Shown here one piece after another: positions 24,321 to 40,440 of a DNA stretch of 64,000 nt. Origin of the DNA: Flammula alnicola (taxonomy: Eukaryota > Basidiomycota > Agaricomycetes > Agaricales > Strophariaceae); the NCBI GenBank assembly GCA_015499995.1, contig JADNRV010000092.1, positions 151,761 through 215,760 of the forward strand, read 5' to 3'. The first letter of the stretch is position 1; each line of letters starts with the position of its first letter. The translations under genes and the position numbers were made by a program. The notes beneath the pieces are model-generated. The model did not search any database. It was not told where the DNA came from and saw only the letters and a list, made by a program, of their open reading frames with translations.

Positions 24321-24836
24321 TGTTACGACCGTTTCATTTCTTTTCATTTCTCTTATCTTATCTTATCTTCACCCGCGCTTAGATGTACGCCAGCTATACT
24401 GGACACTTTCTATTTTAGTAGGAGTACCTTCCCGGTTCCGGACTATTTATAGTTTCCATACTTATGCATCCTCGACGACACTATTATCGTCGAGAGGACT
24501 CTCCTCTCTCCATTCTGACTCCTCCACATTCCTGACTCCATTCTAACGACTCTAAAGGAGTCACTTTATCATGGTCTGTGCACGCTCAGAGCTAGTATAA
24601 ATATCGTAGACACGCAACGATGTACTTTAGCTAGTTCTTGAGAATCTAGACTTCTTGTCTTGCCTCTCTCCTCGCCACGAACATCTAAGCTCGTCGAGCC
24701 TCTAGACACATCACTTAAGCTCGTCTGAGCCTCTAAGTGCGAACGATCCGATCCCAGCACTTCTTGACACGACTTTGGAATCACTGGTTGCTTGACTTCG
24801 ACGTCGCAATCACGTTGTTTCTTGCTAGTCGTAACA
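24321..24836 (+). repeat. 3' LTR (516 bp)
   Basis: Starts TGTTACGACC directly after the purine tract and ends CGTAACA. It is immediately followed by the minisatellite that also flanks the KDZ element. Confidence 0.9.
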
Positions 24837-24837
24837 A

Positions 24838-25374
24838 TGCCGTCTCCGCACCCACAGACGGCCAGGGCGTGCAATCTGCACTCCCAGCTCTTGCGTCGAC
24901 GCCGCCCTCGCACCTACACACCTACAGAAGGCCAGGACGTGCATGCTGCTGCACGTCCTGCTCTCGGACCCGTCATCCCTAGGTCATTCGACCATCCCAC
25001 CAGAGCGAACGGCAGATGAACGGAGGGGAACGAGGTTGGTCGCGACCTTCGCTCTGGGCGTGGATGGGAACGGGCATCGGCGTTGCCGTGCGCTCAGAGG
25101 GGTTCAACGAATAGATGCCGCCTCCGCACCCACAGACGACCAGGGCATGCCAGATTGCAGCTCTCGCGTCGATGCCGCCTCCGCCCTCGAATGCCCTCCA
25201 CACCCACAGACGGCCAGGGCGTGCAATATGCATGCCCAGCTCTCGCATTGATGCCACCTCGCATCAACGCCGCCTCCACATACAGACGACCAGGGCGTGC
25301 AATCTGCATGCCCTGCTCTCACGTCGACACCTCCGTACCCACAGACAGGACGTGCTCTGTGCACGTCCTGCTCT
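24838..25374. repeat. GC-rich minisatellite, left block
   Basis: Degenerate units of roughly 55-65 bp built from ACCCACAGACGGCCAGGGCG, a TGCAATCTGCATGCCC hairpin core, then CAGCTCTCGCGTCGATGCC and GCCTCCGC. The same unit occurs in the same plus-strand orientation at 39.75-40.44 kb. A non-repetitive insert lies near 24965-25110. ORFs here are translated satellite. Confidence 0.8.
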
Positions 25375-25699
25375 CACATAGGTAAGCTACAATGTAGTGT
25401 ACGATACGGTGTAGCGAACGCATACAATGTACCGTATCATACGGGGCCAGCGAATTCGCTGGACGGCATATAATACCTACTGAGGCGTGCCTATATACAT
25501 TGTACCGTATCATACGAGGCCAGCGAATTCGCTGGAGCACCCTACGGCAGTTAAATTGGTCGGCAATACCACTCGGGAGGTGTTCGGCACTTGCTCGGGA
25601 CCCATCGCGGTGCCGACGTATGGCACCGGTACCGGCACTCGGTCAGTCGTCGGCAATGGTGTTGAGGTGCCGACAAGCTGTGGCAGGTCTGCGACTGAC
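25375..25699 (+). repeat. Left terminal inverted repeat of the KDZ element
   Basis: Near-identical (~95% by eye over the outer 290 bp) to the reverse complement of the right end. It contains two direct ~73-bp subrepeats, each with GTACCGTATCATACG followed by the perfect palindrome CCAGCGAATTCGCTGG (25447-25462 and 25520-25535). The inner part holds CGG/CCG motifs such as GGCACCGGTACCGGCAC. Confidence 0.9.
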
Positions 25700-25856
25700 A
25701 CAAATACAGTATAGCGAGAGTCTTATGAATGTATGGTTAGCAGTGGTACTACTAGGAGTAACTTCACTCTGGATGTTGTGGATCAATAGTAAACATGAGC
25801 AATAGCACCGAAATACATGTTATCGACAGTTTCAAGAATGTGACCGTGCTAAAAAA

Positions 25857-28433
25857 GGTCAGATATAGTAGTGCCCATGCTCGTCTACGCCCTCCTCATA
25901 GTCCGTGTCCTCCTCATCTCCCTCATCAGATTCTTCCTCCTCATCATCAGGATCAATATCCTCCTCCGGCTGCCCGGCCAGCCACTCAGCATCTACGAAG
26001 TCGAAATCTGCAGGGCCAAAAGGACCCTGGGGAAGCGTTATGCGGCTGGGGGTCAATGTCAGGGATGCACCAGGTTCATTGAAGGAGGAAGGCAGACGAG
26101 GCTGAGTACCGAAATCGGCACCACCACTATCGGCACCGGATGTTTCGGCACCTGCGTCATCGGCATCATCGTTGTCTGTAGGAACATGTTAACCAAGAAG
26201 GGAGGGAAAGGGAGACGCCATATTTACCATCCTCAGCTGACCAGGCAGATGCTGCATCATCAGCAGTGGCGTGCATCTCAGCCTGACGCGCCTGGTTGCC
26301 ATCGGCATCGGCCGTAGTGTCCTGCTCATCTGAGTCGAAAGCATTGGCAGCATCATCGGCTGTGATTTCCTTGGATTGGTGCGTCAGAATCGATCTCATA
26401 ACACAAGGAGTCACCAATACTAACCACGCGATAGTGACCAGCCGGGGCATCGGCATCGGCATCATAAGTACTTGATCTGGGTGAATGCTCTGATTCATCG
26501 TCGGACCAGACATCTGCGGCATCTTCAAATGTAGGAATGACATTGGCGCGTGCAGTGTACTGCCGTGGGTTCCGACGGGCAAATTGTTGTCGATGGTCAG
26601 TCACGTCAGGAGCAGAGGGGCCCGACCCGGCCACGGCAGGTTCATCGGGAGTTGGGTCGCCAGGGGAATCGTCATCGCTCCAGACAGCCACAGCATCATC
26701 AACTGACAGATGAACGGGTACATTTGGATGGTCCGCACGCCCGGCAGTTGAGTCGGCAGTTCCTCCGGCAGTGAGGGCGGCAGTGGCTCCGGGCCCGGCA
26801 GTTGGACCGGCAGTTGACCCGGCAGTGGTTGGGGCAGTTGAGGCGGCAGGTGGGTCGGCCTCAGAGTCATTGTCACTCCATGCGATAGCAGCATCCTCAG
26901 CAGAGATGCCAGCAGACTTCATGGCAGGGTAACTGCGAACACCATCCCTTGACGGTGTACTGGCATTGATGCCGACAACGGATTCATTCCCGGAGGATGC
27001 GTCGCTCCAAATGTCACCAGCGTCATCAGCAGTTACATACAGGGGCAGGGGAGTAGGGCGGCCAGTGGCATGGGCCATGAGATTCGCTTCAGTGAGGGGA
27101 TCCGCGCCAGATGTTGGAGGCAGAGTGTCCCCAGGCTCGGCCCTTCCAGCGAGACCAGCATCGGCATTTGTCGGGACTGGACGCGTCATTTCGTGCGGCA
27201 ATGAGGCACGACCGTCACTCGGGAGCATTGTAAAATGAGGATCGTTGTGCCACGGTGGGTATGGCTGTGCATCTGGAACTGACATGAGGTCGGGTGCAAG
27301 TCCCGTGAACTGTGCACTGCCGGTCCGTAGGGCAGACGGAACCGTATCTTTCCTTCTCATTACCCCAAGAGGCAAGGACTCGTTATATCCAGAATGCTGT
27401 TTTGCCTTACTGTTTGTCAGCATTAACACCTCGTCCTCCGTCAGATCGGCACCCCAAACCCACTTCAGGGAGCTTGGTGGCAAGCTTATCAATTGTTGTA
27501 GCTCTGAACGAGCCTGGGCAGCAACAGATTTCGATTTCCGATTAATCGAGACCGCAGGAGTATCGCCACGGGACCCCGGTGCTTGTTGGCTCAACAACGT
27601 CAATAACGGTTCGACTGCCGGTGCCGGTCCTGATGCCGATGCCGGTTCACCACCGAGTTCCTTCAGTAACGATTGCTCGTGCAGCACGTGGAGCGAGTCT
27701 GCTTTCCGCATGTCTTGTGCGAGTTGATTGGTTGTTTTGGCCGCCATGCCATCTGCGAGCTGGTAGATCGATTGCAACTCAGTCATGAGGTCCCGGGTGA
27801 GATCTTCATTACCTCGGCACCTTTCACAATCGGCAGTGGAACGGAGGCCGAACTTAGCCTGCGGGGTGGGAATCAGCTGTCTGCCCTGTCGGACAGTAGG
27901 ATGTTGCTTATGGTGTACATCCAACGCTGTTTGTATTGTGGTAAAGGTGAGACGTTCTAGACGTTCCGGTGGGGCATCACCATTCCACCAGTCGAACGCA
28001 TAGGTGGGAACGAGAGCTGCAGGACTATCGGCATCGATCCCTGCATCTAGTGCAGCCAGCAGGCTGCTGTGGAATGCCATTGGGAGCAACTGCCGGCGGG
28101 CGTGGGCAAGGTTATCGGCCAAAGATCGGATGAGGATCGGCACCTCGACAACTTGTCCCACAGCAGTCGCAGCACCGACAAATCCGAGCACGTAAAACTG
28201 GGGAATATGAGCAACCGGGAATGCTGCTACCATTGAAAACATACCAGCTCCTCTCGAAGACAATATTGCATCCATCGTTGCATTTCGGCATCGGCTTTGC
28301 TAATCACAATGAGGGCCTGCCGGAATCGAGATTCTCCGTACCAGATAATGTCTTGTGTCAGACGATGGCAGCTTTTTGTAGAACCATTTTGTAAAGAGAA
28401 CGGGCTGAAGATAGCGAGTACATGGCGCGACAT
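25857..28433 (-). CDS. KDZ-element cargo: acidic protein with repeated DDAxxxWSD motif
   Basis: Four exons join with consensus introns: 28433-28245, 28197-26425, 26369-26228 and 26175 to the stop at ~25857. It starts MSRHVLAIFSPFSLQNGS. The product is ~790 residues. The first third is ordinary globular sequence with a single CERCRG. The rest is low-complexity and carries six copies of a short motif: ADDAGDIWSD, AEDAAIAWSD, VDDAVAVWSD, FEDAADVWSD, ADDAANAFDSD and ADDAASAWSA. The C-terminus is strongly acidic (DPDDEEEESDEGDEEDTD). No family is recognised. It lies just downstream of the transposase on the same strand. An adaptor or chromatin-contacting accessory of the transposon is possible but unproven. 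Confidence 0.75.
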
Positions 28434-28502
28434 TGTTGAAAGAGATTGTGGTCAGAATCAGAGATAATCAAATTTGTAGATTTTCACAGGCGGATTACAT
28501 AA

Positions 28503-31500
28503 CTATGACAGGGGCGATGCATAGTTAAGACATGACTGCCGGAATGCTTTGTCGGCCACCAGTGCCATTTTATACCAAAATAAATATTTGCGATGGGCGT
28601 AGGCTTTGGCGCCGGCACTCGCACTGGGTATATCCAGGGCAGATCTCCACTTACTACTCTCACGCGTCCAATAGCGTACAGTCCACTGCATTTCATATGC
28701 GACAAGTGTGAGTTCCTCATGCCATCGTTGTCTTTGTGCCCGGGCGCGTAGCCAGTGAACGCGCTTGACTTGGTTTTAATCAGTAAATGGGGATGTGCTA
28801 CTGTCATTGAGGGACTCACATTCCAAAAGTGTGGCAGGGTCGGCATCATAGAAGTCGGCATCGGCATCGGCAGTAGCACCGGACCAGCAGTGGCGGCGAG
28901 ACCGGCACCGGGACCACTCCCCAGTATTTGCCATCGTCGTATGTGCCACAGCCAGGATAAGCGTAGCGAGGTTGATCCAGCGATATTCGGATTGACGATA
29001 GCAGTACTCGCTCGTAGATCGGCCTTGGTCAAAACTCGGAATACCCGTAGGGTTTCTGGGTCACAACCCAATTGTACCAATCGCATTCGGCACCGCGAAT
29101 ATATCCTGGCGTGGAAGACAAGTTCATGCCCAATGCGCCGGACATTTTGATGACCGCGAATTCGAACAGCCTTTCGGGCGCTGCTCTGATCACATGTGAG
29201 TACTGAAATGAGATATCGGCAACAAGCTCCCGAAGTCGATTGAGTTGTGCATGAGCCTGCTTTTTGCGGGCCGAAATTTCGACATGTTTAAGATCACCAC
29301 CCACATTGCCATTCGATGGGAGAGACAGTTGCTGCCGTTCGACAGGAATCATGTCGGTCGATGGAAGTGTCGGTGCCGGTGTCTCCTCGCCCGATATTTC
29401 TTCGGCAGCCTCATCAAATTCTGCCTCATCTTCATCGATCGATGGCATCTCGGGACGTTTGTCAGTGATTTCAGCTGCCTCCTTCAGCTGCTTTAATTTG
29501 ACCAGAAGCGGCGCAAGTGCTTCATGAAGCTGTTCAATAATGTGGACTTCGTCCTCCCGAGGGACGGAGCCGAGCCGCCGAACCTTGTCCTGGATATCAA
29601 TCCTTTGAATGGAATTGGTGAATTATGAGCAGGGAGCGGAGTCTTAGATTACTCACTGTTTCTCCTCAATCATCAGTGAGAACTCAATCCATTGCTGTAC
29701 CGGTGAAGCCGAGCCTGCCGGTGCCGGTGCCAAGACTTGTTCCTGTCGATCCGGCACTCGGGCAGCATAGATGTCCATGGCTTTGACATTGGCAAGTCGC
29801 ATTGCCTCTACTCCCAGTACCTCATTTTCCCATGTATTCATCATCTGCGAATCAACTGTGGCGGACAGTTCTGCATAGTATTTATCTGTTTGCGCCACCA
29901 TTGCCTTCGCATCTAGGGACCGGGAGCATAGCGTTGCGGTCATTGCGAGGGTTTTTTTGTGGTTGGAGTCACATGCATGATCGTCGAGCATCTCAGTCCG
30001 ATGGGCCAGAGTGGCTGTTCTGGCTGTCGGCGAAATCTTATTTAAGATCGACCAATTAGACTCTAGGATTTGCCCCTTCACGATACCAGCGCCGGGGATG
30101 AACGTGGTTGCATATCGGAAATAGCATTCATCCTTATGGGCGTGAACATGGAAATGGTCGATCGCCCGGTCGACTTGGAGACCGACCGGCAGCAGGTGCC
30201 CGATTCGGTCACGGAGATGGACAGAGTATTGGCAGGCAATGTCGTAGATGAGCATAACCCCTTGCTGGGGGTCAACTCGGGTGGAGTCCAAGGCTTTGAG
30301 AAATGCGAAATCAACATTCTTTTGTTGCTCTCCTTTGAACAAGTCAACGAGAGCGTTCGGCACATAAAACCCGTGTCGGGCGCAGACGAGGGCGACCAAA
30401 CCTGTGATATCACAGGCCTTGGAAGCCAGGAGAGCATTCATGATTGCTCGAAATGTGTTTTCGCATGGTGCTTTCTGCATGGGATGGTTAGATCGGCATC
30501 GGCATCGGCATCGGCAGTGAAAGACATACCGTTAATCTCTCGATAGCTGTGCGCAAAAATTCTAGATACTCAGCGCGATTTGGGGCCATGCCCGCGCCAT
30601 CCAAGAGCCAAAAATCTTCTTGAGCGCTCTTCTGACGAACGTGATCGGCCTTGAAATTACCATCGGCAACAAAAATGCGCTGAAATGCAAAGCTTCACGA
30701 CGTTTATACAACCATGGGTGTTATACATGTCGGCACCTACCCGTTTTCATCATCTTTCCAATCATCGGGCAAATTTATTCCGGGCTGTGGACATGCTGGA
30801 CAGAAATTGGCCAATGAGCCTGGTGGAGGCTGCATGGGATCCTGTTGATTGTGACCATACCCGGCCCATTTGAGTTTCTTCATCCACCGCCATAGCCGCC
30901 CCATGCGCCTAAACTCATGGTAGAGGTTTGGAATCTCGGCAGTGCCGATCGGCAGTGTCAACCGCCGGAGCAGCTGGTCGAACTGATATGCCGATGCTTT
31001 GAGCTCTAAATTACACAACCGAAAGTAATCCAGCAAGGCCAACGAAAAGAGAGTTCGAATACGCGTGAAGCTTGCTGGCATTAATCGAGAGGCCATCAGA
31101 TCAAGGGGAATGCAATCTGCCCCTCGACACTGACAGGCGACCATGGCAAGATGATGGATGCCATTTATATGCACAATACGCACATAAGTATTGTTGAGGG
31201 CATCGGCCTGTGGCAATGTGCGATCCTCTTGATTGGTGGATGCCGGTGGAATGCCGGTGCCGGTGCCGTCATTGCCTGCAGTACTGGGACTATAGCCGGT
31301 ACCGGCACTATCGGGATTGTGGTTGGTAGGTGCGGGCAGATACGGCTCGAATTCTAAGAACTCATCATGGGCTTCTTGCCCTTCAAAATCATCTTCACCG
31401 TCGCCAAATATGGCAGGATCAGAAGGGTCGACACCATCCCAAGTGCCTGCCTTTGCCTGCCGGAGATTATTCAGAACCTCGAGATATGCAACATCTTCTT

Positions 31501-32379
31501 CTGCCTCCTGCTCCCAATTGGTTGGATGAATATCACCGGGAGCCATGTCATCCATGTCTGAATGCAATGTGCTGTGTGATGACGACTCCGCTTCATGGTG
31601 TCGATGACCTGAGGGCGGTGCCGGTGCCGATGCCGATGCCTTATCTCGGAGCTTCATTTGTTCGTCACTGTCTTTTTGAATTTGAAAAGTCTCCAGAAAA
31701 GTCATGTTGAACTCAAGTGAGTCGCAAATTGGTGTTGACAGTTGATGCGGCACCAACAGATAAGTGCCGACTTCCCATAGTTCGGCCCTCCGAAAATGAG
31801 TGCCGGTCCAGCATTCAATTCGGTGCAATGGATTTTCCCTGTGGTCAAATCGCATACATTTGCGGCAAACGGGAGTTGAGAGAGTGCAGTCGATGCACCT
31901 CCAGATAGCCCAATTGTGGTCTGAGCAGTGTCGGCATATTCGGCTCTCTGTCGACATAGTCTCTCGGCTTAGGAGACCTTGCAGCATTTCGTCCACACGA
32001 TTCACAAATTCCACAACGTAATCTCTCTGTCGCTTTAATGGAATTTTTAGCATCTGCAACAATTGCTATATGTTCATCTCACCTTCCCTTGGCTGCGTGG
32101 AGGAGGCGCATCAACTGCCGATATTTCCTCGTTGAGATCAAAATCGAAGGGATTTGTGTCCATGTGCACGGAGTTGGACGTCTCCTCTTCCACGCGTTCT
32201 GGTTGTAATGGTACAAGTACACGTTTGATTTTGCGCCCTGCTCGCGTGTTTCTGTCGATGTTCTTGTGTGTATACGTATCGGCAGAACCGGCACCGGCAT
32301 CATCTTCATGCAAGGATGCATTGTGTTTCGACACTCTTTTGCGCTTGTAGGCAGAGACCGTCAGGGCATCTGAGCTCAT
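28503..32379 (-). CDS. KDZ transposase with N-terminal CxC2 cysteine cluster
   Basis: Start at ATG 32379 (MSSDALTVSAYKRKRV). Exons: 32379-32083, 32053-30741, 30692-30530, 30474-29657, 29602 to ~29040, then ~29075-28830 and 28768-28503. The CxC2 region reads CRHCSDHNWAIWRCIDC and VCRKCMRFDH..PLHRIECW. The catalytic region contains IFVADGNFKADH, ACDITGLVALVCARHGFYVP, GVMLIYDIACQYSVH and ATTFIPGAGIVKGQILE. The end has RVHWLRARAQ and LVAYEMQWTVRYW. These are hallmarks of the KDZ family, which excises and inserts DNA through a DDE-type nuclease. One frame shift near 29060 is needed, so activity is uncertain. The first intron would be only 29 nt. The intron at 30529-30475 carries four TCGGCA repeats. 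Confidence 0.9.
30493..30516. repeat. Intronic CGG hexamer array (TCGGCA x4)
   Basis: Four tandem TCGGCA hexamers lie inside the third transposase intron, giving CGG triplets every 6 bp. It is one of more than 20 such clusters in the KDZ element. Confidence 0.85.
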
Positions 32380-32574
32380 CGAGATGGTTAGAACAAAGGA
32401 TAGTATGAGGATTCCGTGAGAAGGGGTTCCACACGTGTGGTGTGCATGTTTCACATGAAGGAGGCCACGAGGATTCCATGACAAAGTGTTCCATACTTGA
32501 CATGTATGCTTCCCTTTCCCCCCATTCCGATAATCACACTCTCACATTTGGACATTGAAACACTGTTTATTCCC
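32380..32574. promoter_or_regulatory. Divergent promoter between the transposase and the plus-strand cargo gene
   Basis: 195 bp separate two start codons pointing away from each other (ATG 32379 minus, ATG 32575 plus). AGGATTCC(A/G)TG appears twice (near 32407 and 32470), each within a longer related block, giving a candidate paired control site for both genes. Confidence 0.45.
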
Positions 32575-34881
32575 ATGGAACGTGCCCACAAAAAACCACG
32601 CAAGGACTGTAAATATTCCGCGAAAGAGCTGGAGCAGATTCAAGCCTTCAAAAAGGAGTTCATCATGGCCGACACAATTGACAAGCGGGCGACCATTTTA
32701 AAAACGCAAATTCTCCCCGCTATGTGCAACTATTGGGTCTCAACCGGGCAGCTTTCCACCGAAGACATTGACGACAGCCTTGATCGTGCGAAGGTGAATG
32801 CAACAACGCTTGTGAATGGCGAACCAAACTGACTAGTATGCCAGGAATTGTCCAAATGGGTCGCCAATAACTGGCGGACGGCGCGAGGAGTCGCAACAAG
32901 ATCAAATCACTTTCATCCGAAGAAATCCGAAGTTATGTGGTATCTACATCCGGAAGAAGTGATGAAAGAGGTTGCGTCTTTACTTGGAGTTGAAGAGGCA
33001 ACGACGACGACGACGGGGTGGTTTCAGGAGAGATTGCCAGCCATTGCGAACATATTAGCTCGCATGAGCCCGACAGAGAAGGCAGAATTTGAGGCCGAGG
33101 TTGCGAAGATGGCCAAGGAAGGGTATCCAGAAGAAACGAAGAGATCGTACGTGACTGCCGATGCCGATGCCGGTACTACTGCCGATCTGACTGACTGATG
33201 ATCGGCAGCATAGCGAAGAGGTTCTCTACCAAACGCATCGCAAAGGTTATGGATGAACACTGGAAAGAGATGGGCCTTGTTTCCATCATGATTACTGCCT
33301 ATACTCTACCAGACGGGAAACTGGTCATTGATGCGTGAGTCACAGTGAACATGTGCCGGTGCCGATACTAAGTCGGGTGCCGAAGCCATGATGAAATAGC
33401 AGATTTAATGGGCATTCCTGCAAGGTCCTTGATTGACAGTCACCCAGAGGAAATTTCCAAAATGAAACTGTTACTAATGGATTACATGAAGACATTACGC
33501 ACTAAGGCTCAAGTGCCGGTCGCGGGCGGTATCGGCACCAATCCAGGACTGCAGAAGGTACTTCTCACAACCACTAGTGAGGGGTATCCAATGCTCCCAG
33601 AACCATGGCGGAATGGCGATGAATCGAAGAAGAAGCTAGAGGAATTGTTCAGCTTATATATAGGGCGACATTATAGTAAGTGCGGAGTGACTGCCGCCCG
33701 GCACCGGCACCGGCATCAGCTTATACATTATTTAGAACTGGCAACCAATGGTCGCACGGTACATCCACCATACGCAGCAATAATCGAGAATCACGCAGCA
33801 TATTTCAGTCCGGAATATCTCCCTCCATCGTTCACTGTCAAACACCCCCGAAATCTGACGAAACTGTCGTTAGAAGCATTTTTTGATCACATTGAAGCAC
33901 GCCAAAAAGATCATGGACCAACAGGGGCCTTCCGATTTAAATCTATCAAACATGGTGACACTCTCCTACCCGCAAAATATCCTGCCAGTGCGGCCGATGC
34001 CGGTGCCGGTGCCGGTGCCGCTGGTCGAAGAAAAGCCAAGACAAGAAAAACTAAAACCACTGCGAAGAAAACAAAACGAACCAAAGCTGCAAATACAAAG
34101 AAAGCCCCAAACCCAGTCAATGATCCTAACACATCAGCCACATCTAGTCACCAAGGCCCAGGCGCTGGTGCAGTTCCCTCAGAGGAGAGACTTCCCGATG
34201 CAACGACCGACCTGACAAACTCTGAGGCAGGTGACAATTCCTTTGTCATTGTAAATGAATATGTCATGGCACAGATTCATGCTGCTGGGTATCCAATGCC
34301 CCTCCCGGTAAATGGACCGGCAGATGGATTACCTAAATATGCGATAGATTCAACAACTTACCGAGCTTACGAGCAGTTACAAGATGCAAACGAGAGGCAT
34401 ACTAATCCAACAAATCCCCACCGAAATATCGATCCAGCTCTATTACACCCACCACTGGCACCTATGCCAACACCGGCGGCCACACCGGCACCAGAAACCC
34501 GCCCGGGAGTTGGACCGGCATCGGCACCTGCACACGCATCGGCCCGTGCCCGTCATCCGCGACAGGCTCATGGCCCTCGAACGATCACACAATCGTCGGC
34601 ACCTGCAGTGCAAGTGACTCCAGGAGCGATGGCAATGGCAGCTACACTGACCGCGGAACCGGTACTGACACAGGGACGGAGAGTACCAATCACTCCCGGC
34701 AATGGCAACGAGCAGTGCGGCCAATAGTGGAGCCGCAAGAAACACAAGATCACAAGCAAAAAAAGGGCCTGACCCAGTCTCTATGCAGAAGAGAACTAGA
34801 ATGACTGCTGACGCGTTAGCAAGAGAGGAAGCCACTTCGGCACTTACTCCACGTTCACGACGGAAAACAAGAAAGGGCTGA
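32575..34881 (+). CDS. KDZ-element cargo: basic protein of unknown function
   Basis: Start MERAHKKPRKDCKYSAKELE. Exon 1 ends at 32793; a 51-nt intron with a CTGAC branch point leads to ELSKWVANNWRTARG at 32845. Further introns are 33147-33208, 33335-33399 (one base off phase as written) and a 60-nt intron starting GTAAGTGCGG near 33678. Recognisable blocks include HFHPKKSEVMWYLHPEE and GWFQERLPAIANILARMS, seen in other agaric transposon-linked proteins. A lysine/arginine-rich stretch (RRKAKTRKTKTTAKKTKRTK) looks like a nuclear signal or DNA contact, and a proline-rich tail follows. The C-terminus (TRSQAKKGPDP..RRKTRKG) needs one more frame change near 34700. No TET/JBP iron-binding motif is seen. 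Three of the four introns contain the CCG/CGG hexamers. Confidence 0.7.
33156..33174. repeat. Intronic CCG hexamer array
   Basis: TGCCGATGCCGATGCCGGT sits within the intron 33147-33208, with further GCCGAT and ATCGGC copies beside it, so the motif makes up most of the intron. Confidence 0.8.
33993..34020. repeat. Coding CCGGTG hexamer array
   Basis: One GCCGAT followed by repeated GCCGGT units; read in frame it gives Ala-Asp-Ala-Gly repeats in the basic cargo protein. The same hexamer reads as Pro-Val or His-Arg runs elsewhere in the element, so it is conserved as DNA and not as protein. Confidence 0.85.
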
Positions 34882-35078
34882 GTGCCGGACTATGCCTACA
34901 GGGCAAATGGCTGCTTATGATGTCTCACAAAGGAACACCAAAACTCACGTTATAACATTTGTATATACATCACAAAATATCCGTGCAATATATATACAAA
35001 TTTCGACAAGCGCGCAAAATAAAAATGTCCCAAAAAGCGCCCGTGCTATTGACCAAAAATAAGACCGCTGGCAAACAC

Positions 35079-37665
35079 TTACGACTGCCGAGCTCGCTTT
35101 GCATTGCTCTCCTCCGCTGTGGCATCTGCAGGCCGTTTGTTCCCACCAGCACTTGAAGATGGTGTTGCCGCCGGCGAGGGTGATCGGGTATGGTTGCGAG
35201 GTGAGCGGCGCCATCCACTTTCGGGGACTGGCGAGTTGTGACGGCTTCGGCGAGGAGAGAGGCGACCTGGGTCAACATGTGGAACAGCCAGTAAACTGGG
35301 TTGAGCGGATGGTTGCTCTGGTACGATGGGAGGGATGGAAGGCAGTTCCGCGCTGGGCCTTGAGTCACTGTCGGCAGGGATATCACCACCGGCACCGGCA
35401 TCGGCATCGGGAGCAGGAGATACTGGTGGTGAATGTGAGCGGGGACGGGGTGGAAGAGGGACGTGAGTCTCGTCTTGCATGGCGGGAAGCTCCACACCCA
35501 CCGGCGGCTTTGTTGTGGGAGCAGTGGAGGGCGGTGTAGGGACGAGGCGGCTCGTGGCATACTCGGCGGCTTCCTGCGATGTGTCGGGAGTCGGCGGGAT
35601 TAGGTTGACTGGCGGAACGTCTGGCCTAGAACCACTCTCAATCGTGCCAACACCCATTGTGAGTGTGTGCTCTGCCGATACTGGGACTGGTGCCGGGCGG
35701 GGTCCTGATGCTGCTTGTGACAATAGATGTGCTGTGCCGATGCAGCACGGGAAGGTGGCGAAGCACGCTGCAGTGCCGGTACACTCGAAGAGCGCATGGA
35801 TGCAGGTGCAATCGCTGGTACTGGCACTGTCACGGGTGCCGATGGGGGCAGTCCAGGTACTGGTGCTGATGGTGTAGATACTGCCGATGACGGTGCACCA
35901 CGCGGGACCGGCACCGGTGCTTCTGCCGATGACGAGACGGGAGATGATTGTCGGGAGGCCGGGATTGGCACCGGCATCCCGACGTAGTCTCTCAGGGCTT
36001 TGACGTTGACCTGCAGCGCCTGTTGCCCCTCATCCAGCCATTCCAAGCTCGAGTTCATCTTGCCGATCGTCTCGCCCTGGTGGCGCACGGTTTTCTCCAA
36101 TTTGTCAATCCGGCCCTGGAGCGACAGGAATTTCTGGCCGAAGCCGACAAGGGCAAGATTGTGGTCACCATTGCTGGTGTCCACGTCATCGACTTGTCGC
36201 TCCAGCTCCTCAACACGGCTAACCAGGGTCTCCATGCGCTCGACCATGTCCATGAGGTCCTCCGGCTCTGTTGAAGACATCAAGCAACAAATATATAACA
36301 AAATGGGTTAACTCACCTGCCGACGTGTCCCTCTCCAACACTGCAAATTGAGGCGTTGACGGTCCCGGTATCGGTGCCGACTTCTTCGAGGGTCCCGGTG
36401 CCGGCGTGGTGTCAACTGCCGACGGCCTGCGAGGTGCCAGTGTCTTGGCGTGTGCCGATGCCCTCGTCGGTACCGATGCTTTCGCAGCCGCCGGTCTCTT
36501 CTTAGGCCCCGGTGCTGACGGTTTCGCCTGCGCCTTTCCCTTTCCCTTGGAGGCCGGTGCCGATTTCTTCTTCCATCGGGGTGCCTCCTCCTCATCCTCC
36601 TCCTCATCCTCCTCTGAGCTGGAAACGTCGATATGGATGGGGTCGTTTTTCTTCTTCCCCTTCTTGCATTTGCCGTCCCAGGTACATGCCACCCGTTGCG
36701 TTCCACAGTGGTGACACGCTGAAATCCCTCTTGCCTGCTCCCAACATTCAAATCCTCCCTTTTTGCACCGATCACATTCGCGCTCCATCATCTTGCTGCC
36801 TATCCGAGGTGGCGGCCGTGATTTCGAAGCAGCTGGCCTCGGCTCCTCCTCCTCCTCTTCGGCCTCATCATCCACATCCATTTCCTCATCCTCCTCCTCC
36901 TCGACCGGCGTCGCCTTCACCTTGCGCGGTAATTTTGCCCGTCCATTGGCTTCTTCCCCCTCTGATTCAGCCCTGGCTTTCCTCTTCCCCTTTCTGCCAT
37001 CCCTTTCCTGCCCACGGTTTCTGGAAGCAGGTGCGGGACCGGGACCGGGACCGGCAGAATCACGACCACCGGGAGTGCGACCGACACCGGCACCGGCAGC
37101 GGGACGAGCAGGTCGACTGGTAACCGCACAAGGAGACGGCGCAGTGGGAGTCGCCAGACGAGGAGACGGCGCAGTGGGAGTGGCCAGACGAGGAGACAGC
37201 GGAGTGGGAGCACCCGTAGGTGCAGCGAGCACAGGACCAACGGCCGTCACTGTTTGCCGGGTCGGTGATGCAGGACGAGGGGGAGGGGGTGCCGAGTGTG
37301 AGGCGGGGGGTGCTTGGCCTGCCGTGTCAAAACAGACGAGCTGGGCACGCTGCGTCGCAATGAACGCGTTGTCTGCCTTCTTACCCGCCCCTTTCCAGGC
37401 CACCACAAAGCCCCACAAGAACACATGGGCCTTGTAGGCTTCCTGAACTTCTGCCGAGAGATCGGCACTCTTCTTGGTGTCGAAAAGCCAGCGCTGTCAT
37501 TTGGATTAAGCACAAACCTCTGTAATGAAGGGACGAAACACATACCAGGTTGGCCTTCTGTGCCTTCATCGCCTGCTCGATGTTTCCTGATGTCAATCCC
37601 TGCCGAATCGCATTGTCGACGTCCTGGATGATGCTATTGACTGCGGCGGCGGTAATGGTAGACAT
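35079..37665 (-). CDS. KDZ-element cargo: Zn2Cys6 cluster and coiled-coil protein
   Basis: Exon 1 37665-37546 (MSTITAAAVNSIIQDVDNAI), exon 2 37493-36317, exon 3 from 36267, all in phase across consensus introns. One probable frame shift near 35725-35760 joins the tail ending NAKRARQS at 35079. Exon 2 carries RECDRCKKGGFECWEQ followed by ACHHCGTQRVACTW. Its spacing, CX2CX6CX9CX2CX6C, is that of the Gal4-type binuclear zinc cluster, and a Lys-rich CKKGKKK follows. Exon 3 begins with a long heptad region (MVERMETLVSRVEELERQ). Gal4-type proteins bind CGG triplets, often as dimers through a coiled coil. The N-terminal ~130 residues (VFLWGFVVAWKGAGKKADNA) are unrecognised. Proline- and acid-rich linkers make up the rest. 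Likely a nuclear DNA-binding factor of the transposon. Confidence 0.75.
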
Positions 37666-37900
37666 GGTAGGTAGAATAGATGGTAGAGGTGGGGGCTATG
37701 GGTCTGATACAAAGGTGCCGGGATGGTGCGGCAGTGGAAGTCGGCAGGCAAGGTGAAAGGACGCAGAATCGAGTCATCGAGAAATTCAACAGTCACGTGA
37801 CTGATCGATCACATCACTTAACATAGCCACACAGTCAATATATCCGTTGCAGATTAGGATGGTGATCCTCTGCTATTAGCTCACATCTGTTAGGACCGCC

Positions 37901-38713
37901 ATGGATGCAACACCCGAGAGAGAACCTGAGCCATCTACCCTACATATCCCCGATGGTTTCGCTGCCCTGGTCACTCCCGATGGGGACCGGTACATTGTTC
38001 CCGAATTCATGATTCCAGCGACCCAGCAAGCTTTTGGAGCCTATCGGAAACAGGTCGAGTTGGATGTTGTGAATGAAAACGGATGCGTAAGTTCTCTTTC
38101 TTCCGCTCATTCATTGTTTAGGTGCATTGGCCCTCGGTGGATCTGACCGATACCGGGAACAATGCCGGTGTACCTGCCGGTGCCGATGTCAGTGCAATGC
38201 ACCCGGTGTTGGTGCCGGTGCCGGTTCTATTCCTGCTGCCGGGACCGGGTGCCCTTCCTGTTGCCGACTGGTGCAGATAATCCCGACACAATAAATGCTG
38301 ATCAAAATTCACAGTCTGAGAATTCCCAAGGCATTCCTTGCATACTTCTGGGGCACAAGGCACTCGTATTCCCAGCTGACCCAGTGGGTGCTCCATTGAC
38401 TCCTGGCCATTGTCACTCACTCACGAGACTATAGCCTTTGACTGATAGGGAGCTACTGGCCGCCCATGCAGAAGTGAAGGCTCTCCAGGAGCAACTGGGC
38501 TTATCCTACAAGGATGCAAGCCACCGGCTTTACATGTCAACATGGGAGAAGGTCAAAGCTGATGAGGAGACGAAGAAGTTTTTCACAATATTGTCCGAAC
38601 GAACCAAGAACTCCCTGGAAACATTTCAAACTCGCCTTTCGGACATTGCATGCAGCAATGGTCATCCTGTCAGCGAGGACACTGCCGGTGCCGAGGTGCT
38701 TCCACATGTATAA
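37901..38713 (+). CDS. KDZ-element cargo: small protein of unknown function
   Basis: Starts MDATPEREPEPSTLHIPDG. An intron begins GTAAGTTC after ENGC near 38087, and a middle part is dense in CCGGTG hexamers. The last part reads LLAAHAEVKALQEQLGLSYK..DASHRLYMSTWEKVKADE and ends at 38713. The middle needs one frame change near 38265. The end resembles proteins that accompany agaric KDZ-type elements, but no domain can be named. It is divergent from the Zn2Cys6 gene, with ~235 bp between start codons. Confidence 0.6.
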
Positions 38714-39419
38714 TCAAATTGTTCAAATACTTCCCTTCCAATAGACAGTCGTCATTTAGTCAAAATTATTAAGAATACTGATTAAGCATACATGCTGAAC
38801 CCGCCGGTGGGCAATGCCAACATCCTGCCGATGCGCGATCAAGTGCCGGTCGTTCTACCGGACGTCGGCACCAGACGTCGGCACTGCACTGGTGCCGACC
38901 GAGTGCCGCTCACCTACCGACTCGTATGATGACTTACCCCCGGTCGGCAGTAGCCTGGCGTCTATGCTTAACCATTTTCTTTGAACAAAAACTTTGCCTT
39001 TTACGAGACTAATATCTGCCCGGACACATCAACTACTGCCTTGACATAACACAGCTCGAGACCCAAATGAACGAGGTATGAAAGGAGGTTTGATCAGCAC
39101 TGACCAAAATCCAGGAAAGGTTGGAAGAAATGTGTCATGGAGAGCACTCCATAACTCAATTCTTCTAACGTTTCATGGATCTTGGATGCTGCTGATCAAA
39201 CCCTCAGTCATACCACATTCATCTGGGTCTCAGGCTGTAGGGAAATAGTTGGGGAGTCCCCCCTTATATAAGTCATCTACCCAGATATAAATAAACACTT
39301 GCACATGTTACAATGGGCTTCTTTCTATGTCATGGACAACTGCTGAGCACACCTCCTGACCATCGCGTGCATGGCGGGCCGGCGTCATGGTGGACTGGTA
39401 GTGCATGGCGGACCGGCAG
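38714..39419. other. Non-coding right interior of the KDZ element
   Basis: No gene is seen. It holds a dense CGGCA cluster at ~38840-38960. A 13-bp hairpin GGTTTGATCAGCA/TGCTGATCAAACC (39087-39099 and 39190-39202) follows, then a TATATAAG plus AATAAA stretch near 39266-39295 that may be promoter/poly(A) debris of an old LTR. Confidence 0.5.
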
Positions 39420-39753
39420 TTAGTCGCAGAACTGCCACCGCTTGTCGGGCCCGAGCGGGGTGCCGACAACAGTGCCGACGACAGACCGAGTGCCGGTACC
39501 GGTGCCATACGTCGGCACCGCGATGGGTCCCGAGACAGTGCCGAACCCCTCCCGAGTGGTATTGCCGACCAATTTAACTGCCTTAGGGTGCTCCAGCGAA
39601 TTCGCTGGCCTCGTATGATACGGTACAATGTATATAGGCATGCCTCAGTAGGTATTGTAGGCCGTCCAGCGAATTCGCTGGCCCCGTATGATACGGTACA
39701 ATGTATGTGTTCGCTATACCGTATCGTACACTACATTGTAGCTTACCTATGTG
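39420..39753 (-). repeat. Right terminal inverted repeat of the KDZ element
   Basis: Reverse complement of the left end, with the two 16-bp palindromes CCAGCGAATTCGCTGG at 39593-39608 and 39666-39681. It ends GCTTACCTATGTG, directly followed by CTGCTCT, the duplicated target. Confidence 0.9.
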
Positions 39754-40440
39754 CTGCTCTCGTGTCGACGCTGCCTCCGCCCTCGAACGCCCTCCATACC
39801 CACAGACGGCCAGGGCGTGCAATCTGTATGCCCAGCTCTCGCATCGATGCCGCCTCGCGTCGACGCCACCTCCACGTATACAGACGACCTGGACGTGCAA
39901 TCTGCACGCCCAGCTCTCGCGTCGATGCCGCCTCCGCCCTCGAACGCCCTCTGCACCTACAGAAAGCCAGGACGTGCAGCATCTCGCATCGACACTGCCT
40001 CTGCACCCATAGACGACCAGGGCGTGCAATATGCACGCCCAGCTCTTGCATCGACGCCACCTCCACATACAGACGACCAGGGCGTGCAATCTGCATGCCC
40101 TGCTCTCGCCTCGACATCGCCTCGACACCTACGACCAGGCGAGAGCAGGACGTGCAGATTGCACGCCCCGGCTCCACACCCACAGACGACTAGGTGACCA
40201 GGGCGTGCCAATCTGCATGCCCTGCTCTCGTGTGTCGACGCCGCCTCTACACTCACAGACGGCCACCGTCGACGCCGGCTCCACACCTACAGACGACCAG
40301 GCGACCAGGGCGTGCAGATTGCACGTCCGGGTCTCGTGTCGATGCCGCCTCCATACCCCACAGATGGCCAGAATGTGCTGCACGCCCTGGCTCTCGAGGT
40401 TGTCATGTGGGGCCGAGAAGAGGAGCAGGGCGTACCATAT
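39754..40440. repeat. GC-rich minisatellite, right block, then spacer
   Basis: The same unit as at 24.84-25.37 kb in the same chromosomal orientation, with a few units inverted near 40130-40180. The next ~425 bp (40441-40866) hold nothing recognisable apart from the promoter region of the nuclease gene. Confidence 0.8.

Follow-up and report, generated by a model that had tools for sequence, protein, structure and literature searches.

YCGGCA, a short word repeated throughout a KDZ transposon family of Flammula alnicola, may be read by the family's own zinc-cluster protein

As far as we have seen, the known transposons that counter silencing in a sequence-specific way are the VANDAL elements of Arabidopsis, with their VANC proteins. 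The VANDAL/VANC reports describe a short family-specific word, YAGTATTAY, which comes in C- and T-types and forms tandem repeats in the family's own copies; related VANDAL families have diverged words, and the sites of VANC21 lie in non-coding DNA (PMC5735166, PMC10398659). Here we describe a fungal DNA transposon that is filled with another short word, YCGGCA, and that carries a gene for a zinc-cluster protein. It lies in a window of 64,000 nucleotides (the whole stretch of DNA that was analysed), which is part of contig C854 (215,760 bp) in the genome of Flammula alnicola (74.4 Mb in 861 contigs).

The closest described transposons are the Kyakuja (KDZ) elements of Agaricomycetes: they are reported to have 7-bp target-site duplications (TSDs) and CA..TG ends, some of them carry TET/JBP, and two families from Laccaria lack terminal inverted repeats (TIRs) (PMC12730594). 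The window element also has a KDZ transposase (domain PF18758, E = 2.8e-38, 132.2 bits against a Pfam cut-off of 26.6). Over 37% of its length, the transposase exon used as query is 100% identical to an annotated F. alnicola protein, and the transposase of Tricholoma matsutake is a near relative. It is bounded by CACATAGGTAAG termini of the CA..TG type, and CTGCTCT flanks both sides of CACATAGG..CCTATGTG as a 7-bp TSD. Unlike the Laccaria families, it has TIRs (about 325 bp, 91% identity), so we consider it to be a Kyakuja-like KDZ transposon and not a proven Kyakuja. Also, the word "zinc" is absent from the main text of PMC12730594, whereas the window element has its zinc-cluster gene. In the literature, mostly its open-access part, we found no report of KDZ elements with dispersed words or with zinc-cluster cargo.

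In an unbiased search, all of the most enriched 6-mers of the element overlap TCGGCA or CCGGCA. YCGGCA is present at 152 sites (77 on the forward and 75 on the reverse strand), whereas 300 first-order Markov simulations of the element gave 19.9 sites on average and never more than 33. In the left flank, 23 sites were observed and 24.4 were expected. The original prediction, which was made from these letters alone, named equal density in the flanks as the outcome that would count against it; the density is 10.6 sites per kb inside the element and 0.8 per kb in the flanks. The enrichment is confined largely to the exact words. TCGGCA occurs 88 times in the element and 28 times in 49.6 kb of flank (3.5 times the element's length), and CCGGCA occurs 64 and 11 times, which is an enrichment of 11- to 19-fold, as compared to 1.1-fold for ACGGCA (8 and 24) and 1.4-fold for GCGGCA (11 and 27). 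Most of the other 30 one-letter neighbours (21) are at 0.4- to 2-fold, with five at 2.2- to 2.6-fold and four at 3.4- to 5.4-fold. (For TCGGCA, 13 of these 15 neighbours are at 0.4- to 1.5-fold and the remaining two are at 2.6- and 3.8-fold. The neighbours of CCGGCA are at 0.8- to 5.4-fold, with CCGGTA, CCGACA, and CCGGGA the highest.)

The original prediction described these repeats as arrays of CGG triplets. The CGG arrays are real: plain CGG-N3-CGG occurs 85 times in the 14.4-kb element and 27 times in the 49.6 kb outside, and CGG-N3-CGG-N3-CGG on both strands occurs 21 times inside and never outside in the window. However, what repeats is the full YCGGCA and not only CGG. Its doubles (27) and triples (8) are all inside the element, and the 49.6 kb of host DNA around it has none, so the clusters are element-specific as claimed. 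More than 20 clusters had been reported, and we count 23 with at least three YCGGCA sites and gaps of up to 40 bp; the 14 clusters that were listed and both TIRs all hold YCGGCA (3–7 sites each), and the phases of the sites over open frames agree with the word being read in every frame. The word is dispersed as well as arrayed, with 34 of the 152 sites being singletons. Density is 10.4 per kb in annotated gene segments and 10.7 per kb in the rest of the element, where 98 of the 152 sites lie. Neighbouring sites up to 60 bp apart in the window element are mostly direct (67, with 10 convergent and 15 divergent), the commonest spacing is 6 bp (27 adjacent pairs), and a fixed palindromic spacing is absent. 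(Two small elements discussed below, C153 and C861, have 13 and 15 divergent pairs that are 2 bp apart, because of their repeat unit.) CpG observed/expected ratios (element 0.88, flank 0.96, other KDZ loci C105 0.91 and C160 0.95, TET loci 0.75–0.80) indicate mild depletion, which we set aside as evidence.

Two comparisons indicate selection on the word. First, we shuffled synonymous codons 1000 times in nine open frames, which include three parts of the transposase gene and three parts of the zinc-cluster gene: 94 sites were observed, as compared to a mean of 33.5 in the shuffles. The observed count was reached by none of the 1000 shuffles in four frames and by 1, 7, 31, 34, and 39 per 1000 in the others. 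Second, the sites are retained between copies more often than words of the same composition. Against C630, for which the copies are 80% identical, 134/202 sites (66%) are kept vs. 346/819 (42%) of same-composition words (p = 4e-12); the counting was done from either side of each comparison, which counts kept sites twice and makes the p-values optimistic. The corresponding values are 76/105 (72%) vs. 206/432 (48%) for C66, 18/36 (50%) vs. 26/122 (21%) for C268, 218/263 (83%) vs. 716/966 (74%) for C250, and 120/133 (90%) vs. 412/498 (83%) for C858. The excess over shuffles and the retention together imply that the DNA word itself is selected, as the original prediction held. This result stands across coding and non-coding parts of the element, whatever the reader of YCGGCA.

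The word is a property of the family. In eight autonomous-type copies (the window, C250, C858, C630, C66, C268, C147, and C99; some are partial and C66 is a 6.9-kb deleted copy), YCGGCA is present at 9.0–11.5 per kb, vs. 0.7–1.3 per kb in flanks, in a host stretch, and at four other KDZ loci (C105, C645, C160, and C415). At the loci where an element edge was covered, the per-kb counts fall at the edge; C858 is motif-bearing and its contig ends inside the element. Seven small elements of 2.5–6.8 kb (C203, C153, C861, C183, C612, C54, and C33) align to the eight autonomous-type copies over 472–522 bp of TIR alone, with matches under 40 bp dropped. Their non-aligning bodies (2.0–6.3 kb) nevertheless have 5.4, 7.5, 8.0, 8.8, 13.0, 13.8, and 14.0 sites per kb, with the middles of C203, C183, C612, and C54 being poor in sites. 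Exact 7-bp TSDs flank C66, C203, C153, C861, and C54, and we looked for TSDs at C183, C612, C33, and C268 but did not find them. The small-element bodies contain 163–165-bp tandem repeats (stretches L018–L023 and L033), and each of 10 aligned repeat units of one group has two or four YCGGCA sites. This period is close to that of nucleosomes. The bodies of C861, C153, C468, and C612 can be aligned with the C33-type body at about 66–67%, which suggests that the bodies probably share one origin, and their words would therefore represent one line of descent and not seven.

Across the genome, we placed the zinc-cluster gene at 19 loci (the cysteine spacing itself was seen at six of these and the rest are protein matches). 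The YCGGCA triple occurs at 128 sites, as compared to 3 for a reversed control. Among the 100 of 128 triples that were listed, 15 of the 19 loci have one within 15 kb, and the window, with its eight triples, makes 16 of 19, which supports the claimed link between the word and the gene. The loci without a listed triple are C186, C679, C801, and C854 (the window), and the last three are on contigs outside the 100 triples listed. Conversely, 61 of the 100 listed triples have a zinc-cluster or TIR match no more than 15 kb away and 32 more have a C33-type or TIR match nearby (assigned by hand), so that 93 of 100 are within 15 kb of a zinc-cluster, TIR, or C33-type small-element match. The others are C174, which is beside a KDZ match, and six more (C7, C168, C245, C355, C455, and C590). 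None of the 19 loci has an over-cut-off TET match within 15 kb, which is another difference from Kyakuja. A tree of KDZ domains (11 rows) is too weak to support a single clade of zinc-cluster elements.

The 809-aa zinc-cluster protein has an N-terminal segment, a basic low-complexity region, the zinc cluster, a likely coiled coil, and a proline/serine-rich tail. Gal4-type Zn2Cys6 domains have the pattern CX2CX6CX5-12CX2CX6-8C, and all six aligned copies fit it; 15 positions are invariant among them, including all six cysteines. The spacing in the original prediction (CX2CX6CX9CX2CX6C) is exact, yet the domain is not a textbook Gal4-type zinc cluster. In native order, the Pfam family Zn_clus (PF00172, cut-off 21) matches C147 with a score of 23.2, and C268 (20.5) and C630 (20.4) are just below the cut-off, while the window and C99 have no match. 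In C268 and C147, it is the second half that matches the start of Zn_clus, and in C630 it is the first half that matches its end, so perhaps the halves are in reversed order relative to the Gal4 type. Swapping the halves by hand raises the score for C630 (20.4 to 25.1), C99 (none to 9.9), and the window (none to 9.8) and lowers it for C268 (20.5 to 19.8) and C147 (23.2 to 20.4), and hence the order swap is suggestive only. Comparisons to structures in PDB are weak in both orders. The best hit of the native family profile is LAC9, in native order (E = 0.025); the same profile matches PPR1 in swapped order (E = 9.8); and the swapped C630 has GAL4 as its best hit (E = 0.11). LAC9 is a Gal4-type protein that binds CGG triplets. 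A homolog search with the spliced C630 protein and with its region 260–330 gave four candidates, among which we found only the window's annotated protein, and none beyond this genome.

The preferred form of the word differs with the clade of the zinc cluster. The ratio of TCGGCA to CCGGCA is 88:64, 70:58, 40:24, 69:48, and 38:24 in the window clade and 134:20, 97:12, and 55:7 in the C268 clade. At residue +4 of the second half, which we take to be the place of Gal4's CGG-contacting lysine, the window clade has arginine (3/3 aligned) and the C268 clade has lysine (3/3 aligned). Among the small elements, C33, with a C268-type TIR, has a ratio of 54:3, and the six others have 14:49, 28:65, 8:22, 2:18, 13:15, and 9:11. 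Fragments of the window clade are T-rich (C357, 13:2; C88, 13:5), and the window stretch that matches the C357 fragment has 14:6. We set aside a chi-square test on the two types, which omits C250, C858, C147, and the fragments and in which the sites are non-independent.

What is new here, besides YCGGCA, is that this genome also has KDZ loci that carry TET/JBP and contain different dispersed words (CCGAGG and CCGG). The 119 KDZ matches in the genome merge into 82 loci. A TET/JBP match over the cut-off lies within 7 kb of 16 of these loci, a zinc-cluster match lies within 14 kb of 13, and the other 53 have neither; at least three of these 53 are motif-bearing (C174 and C429 by triples, C858 by density). 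At the TET locus C415, CCGAGG occurs at 41 sites in 9.9 kb, on both strands, as compared to 3.2 expected (L030, 702–1754 and 4320–9874). Of its 18 neighbours, the most raised are CCGTGG (18 vs. 4.3) and CCGCGG (7 vs. 2.0), and four others are raised about twofold. C59, a second copy of this family (L034), has 27 CCGAGG/CCTCGG sites in 5 kb, as compared to 1.6, with several neighbours raised 3- to 5-fold. Between these copies, which are 91% identical, 44/54 CCGAGG sites are kept vs. 224/335 same-composition words. At another TET locus, C314 (L035, C314:35500-40500), there are 62 CCGG sites vs. 12.2 expected, and two CCGAGG sites. Facing pairs of CCGAGG number 169 genome-wide (sites counted on both strands) vs. 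90 for a control, which is about twofold, and several are listed at the TET-KDZ loci C9, C49, C59, C77, and C119. In the families of C105 (nine loci at 99–100%) and C160 (four loci), no comparable word was found in the 7.3–7.5 kb of element covered, and neither a zinc cluster nor TET was found nearby (L027 from 2443 and L029 from 2642). The best hexamer z scores are 5.3 for C105 and 5.6 for C160, as compared to 34.7 for the window, 49.7 for C268, 21.4 for C415, 17.1 for C59, and 10.1 for C314. C645 has A/T-rich words alone (best z 9.7, AAAAAA).

The genome has 26 TET matches over the cut-off (PF12851), 10 of them away from KDZ; PF20515, used as a TET profile, had no match in the genome or in controls. 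Five TET/JBP matches have near-equal scores and no KDZ match nearby (C323:355796, C235:392351, C268:24478, C588:20551, and C779:212696), so another transposon type may carry TET in this genome.

We propose that YCGGCA is a selected self-recognition word of the element family and that it is bound by the family's own zinc-cluster protein, which would keep the family open or counter its silencing; we give this a probability of about 0.5. Under this proposal, the zinc-cluster protein, with its Gal4-type spacing, perhaps swapped order, and following coiled coil, would bind the word at its many sites in family members and in the small elements with shared ends. It would thus coat its own family and keep the copies open or counteract silencing. 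The family would be kept active in a host with DNA-methylase matches (eight over the cut-off in this genome), as a fungal analogue of VANDAL/VANC. It is plausible that the zinc-cluster protein reads the word, and anti-silencing or activation is the outcome that we infer.

Several observations weigh against this proposal. The zinc-cluster groups and the transposase groups coincide, so the linkage cannot separate the two as readers, and 13 of the 19 loci in that linkage are protein matches without the spacing itself being seen. The zinc cluster of the window is one of those without a native Zn_clus match, and an AlphaFold model from the zinc-cluster alignment has a pLDDT confidence score of 46.5, which is too poor to judge a Zn2Cys6 fold. 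The T:C differences between the clades represent no more than two events. The family does not have YCGGCA entirely to itself, as the CCGG excess at C314 includes 14 CCGGCA sites (YCGGCA at 3.0 per kb). No KDZ locus has both TET and a zinc cluster (0/82), but this is not significant (Fisher p = 0.06) and is confounded by ancestry. Finally, zinc-cluster spacing was not found in the parts of C415, C59, and C314 that were covered; the words at these TET loci would need another reader, which makes the transposase or another element protein a serious alternative.

A broader, tentative version of our proposal accommodates the TET loci: KDZ lineages with chromatin-type cargo (a zinc cluster or TET/JBP) could each be stamped with their own CpG-containing word (YCGGCA, CCGAGG, or CCGG), which an element protein would read to spare or open its own family alone, with no word in lineages that lack such cargo. 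The data fit a family-specific self-marking of the VANDAL/VANC kind that is tied to this cargo. If this is true, then sequence-specific anti-silencing evolved independently in fungi. Comparing the lineages would make the rules testable: the identity of the reader, the co-evolution of word and reader, and whether zinc cluster and TET are interchangeable against silencing.

The most serious alternative is that YCGGCA is bound by the KDZ transposase, or by an accessory transposition protein, with clustering that aids synapsis and marks the family for mobilisation. We view this as possible but somewhat doubtful. The small elements keep the word and the TIRs and share nothing else with the autonomous-type copies, and four of them have middles poor in sites, as might be expected if the word serves transposition. 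The different words of different KDZ lineages also fit a common reader: a single cause for all of them, including the TET loci without a zinc cluster, would suggest the transposase or some other protein that they share. On the other hand, a uniform density over 14 kb, genes included, is needless for the recognition of ends. Also, the C105 and C160 families have near-identical copies without a comparable word in the element parts covered, which makes it seem that KDZ elements can transpose without one.

A second alternative is that a host factor reads the word, as a borrowed enhancer, insulator, or origin, or as a host silencing tag. CGG- and CCG-containing words are typical sites of fungal zinc-cluster regulators, and the presence of YCGGCA on both strands and in any frame would suit such a factor. 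This seems unlikely because no double or triple is present in the host DNA that flanks the element (49.6 kb), because 93 of the 100 listed triples (128 genome-wide) are near this element group, and because the KDZ lineages of this genome differ in their words.

Third, neutral microsatellite growth and gene conversion could have carried a CGG-rich hexamer through a single lineage of transposons. Many sites are in 6-bp tandem arrays (27 adjacent pairs at 6 bp), slippage is probably what makes these arrays, and 9 of 30 one-letter neighbours are above twofold, as if from decay. As a full explanation this is very improbable, given that the exact words are raised 11- to 19-fold while 21 of 30 neighbours are at 0.4- to 2-fold, that sites are retained above same-composition words, that many sites are singletons, and that the bodies of the small elements have the word without aligning to the autonomous-type copies. 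Finally, selection on the encoded Ala-Asp, Pro-Val, or Arg-His runs is hardly credible: some sites do lie in low-complexity protein segments, but most lie beyond the annotated gene segments, at an equal density, they occur in all frames and on both strands, and synonymous shuffles fall far short of the observed count. On these grounds (word exactness, shuffles, retention, and small-element bodies), we set aside both neutral repeat growth and protein-level selection.

Table 1. Features of the window element, in window coordinates.
Feature	Position	Strand	Remarks
KDZ (Kyakuja-like) DNA transposon, 14,379 bp	25375..39753		TIR match, 7-bp TSD, KDZ transposase
TSD CTGCTCT, left copy	25368..25374		7 bp
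TSD CTGCTCT, right copy	39754..39760		7 bp
Left TIR	25375..25699	+	6 YCGGCA sites in 25375-25710
Right TIR	39419..39753	-	6 YCGGCA sites in 39420-39753
Open frame, 648 aa, without Pfam match	26353..28299	-	22 YCGGCA sites vs. 7.5 in synonymous shuffles
KDZ transposase gene, CxC2 and KDZ domains	29029..32065	-	745-aa annotated F. alnicola product
Perfect YCGGCA array in transposase gene	30492..30516	word on +	unit ATCGGC, 4.2 copies
Open frame, 451 aa, without Pfam match	33372..34727	+	15 YCGGCA sites vs. 4.7 in synonymous shuffles
YCGGCA array in the 451-aa open frame	33993..34020	word on -	unit GCCGGT on +, 4.7 copies
Zinc-cluster gene	35079..37665	-	809-aa annotated product
YCGGCA array in tail of zinc-cluster gene	35385..35412	+	unit CACCGG
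Likely coiled coil after zinc cluster	35980..36266	-	approximate limits; weak coiled-coil matches, all below cut-off
Zinc cluster CX2CX6CX9CX2CX6C	36684..36776	-	cysteines invariant in 6/6 aligned copies

Some other features of the element and its relatives were noticed along the way. By eye, the 648-aa frame has a repeated DDAxxxWSDxxS-like peptide, and its counterpart in the C268 clade (stretch L025, 3352-5003) has a repeated DALASRWLADxxADS-like peptide. Short repeats in the two flanks (24835-25385 and 39743-40309) are related and have similar spurious open frames, also by eye, and the insertion site seems to be a repeat array. Relative to C250 (stretches L013 and L014), the first 1 kb of the window element is about 100% identical and the whole 13 kb is 92.5% identical, with 61–75% identity for the zinc-cluster protein, which suggests mosaic copies and recombination between family members. 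Among the best 120 of 774 CxC2 homologs, 21 have two-residue runs, 14 of these being of types that YCGGCA would encode (counted by hand). Such runs (SASASA, ADADAD, and PVPVPV) are found in P0004, P0019, P0050, P0080, P0089, P0096, and others; this is a lead only, without a control, and hexamer-array words elsewhere are possible.

How does this system compare to known ones? With Gal4-type regulators (PF00172), the element's protein shares the exact cysteine spacing, a likely coiled coil after it, and a CGG in the word; the difference is that the halves of its domain look swapped in some comparisons, although the LAC9 hit is in native order. CACTA (En/Spm) elements encode TnpA, which binds many short subterminal repeats in the element's own DNA, and small CACTA derivatives keep these repeats. 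The KDZ family similarly has many short repeats in its own DNA that are kept in small derivatives, but CACTA sites are subterminal whereas YCGGCA covers the whole element. As to VANDAL/VANC, the shared features are an element-specific, short, pyrimidine-ambiguous word that is repeated through the family's own copies, diverged words in relatives, and a transposon-encoded reader, which for the KDZ element is a candidate only. The KDZ element is fungal, its transposase is KDZ and not MULE, its candidate reader is Zn2Cys6-like, and YCGGCA is as dense in genes as elsewhere, whereas the VANC21 sites described are non-coding. The likeness to VANDAL/VANC would be one of function only.

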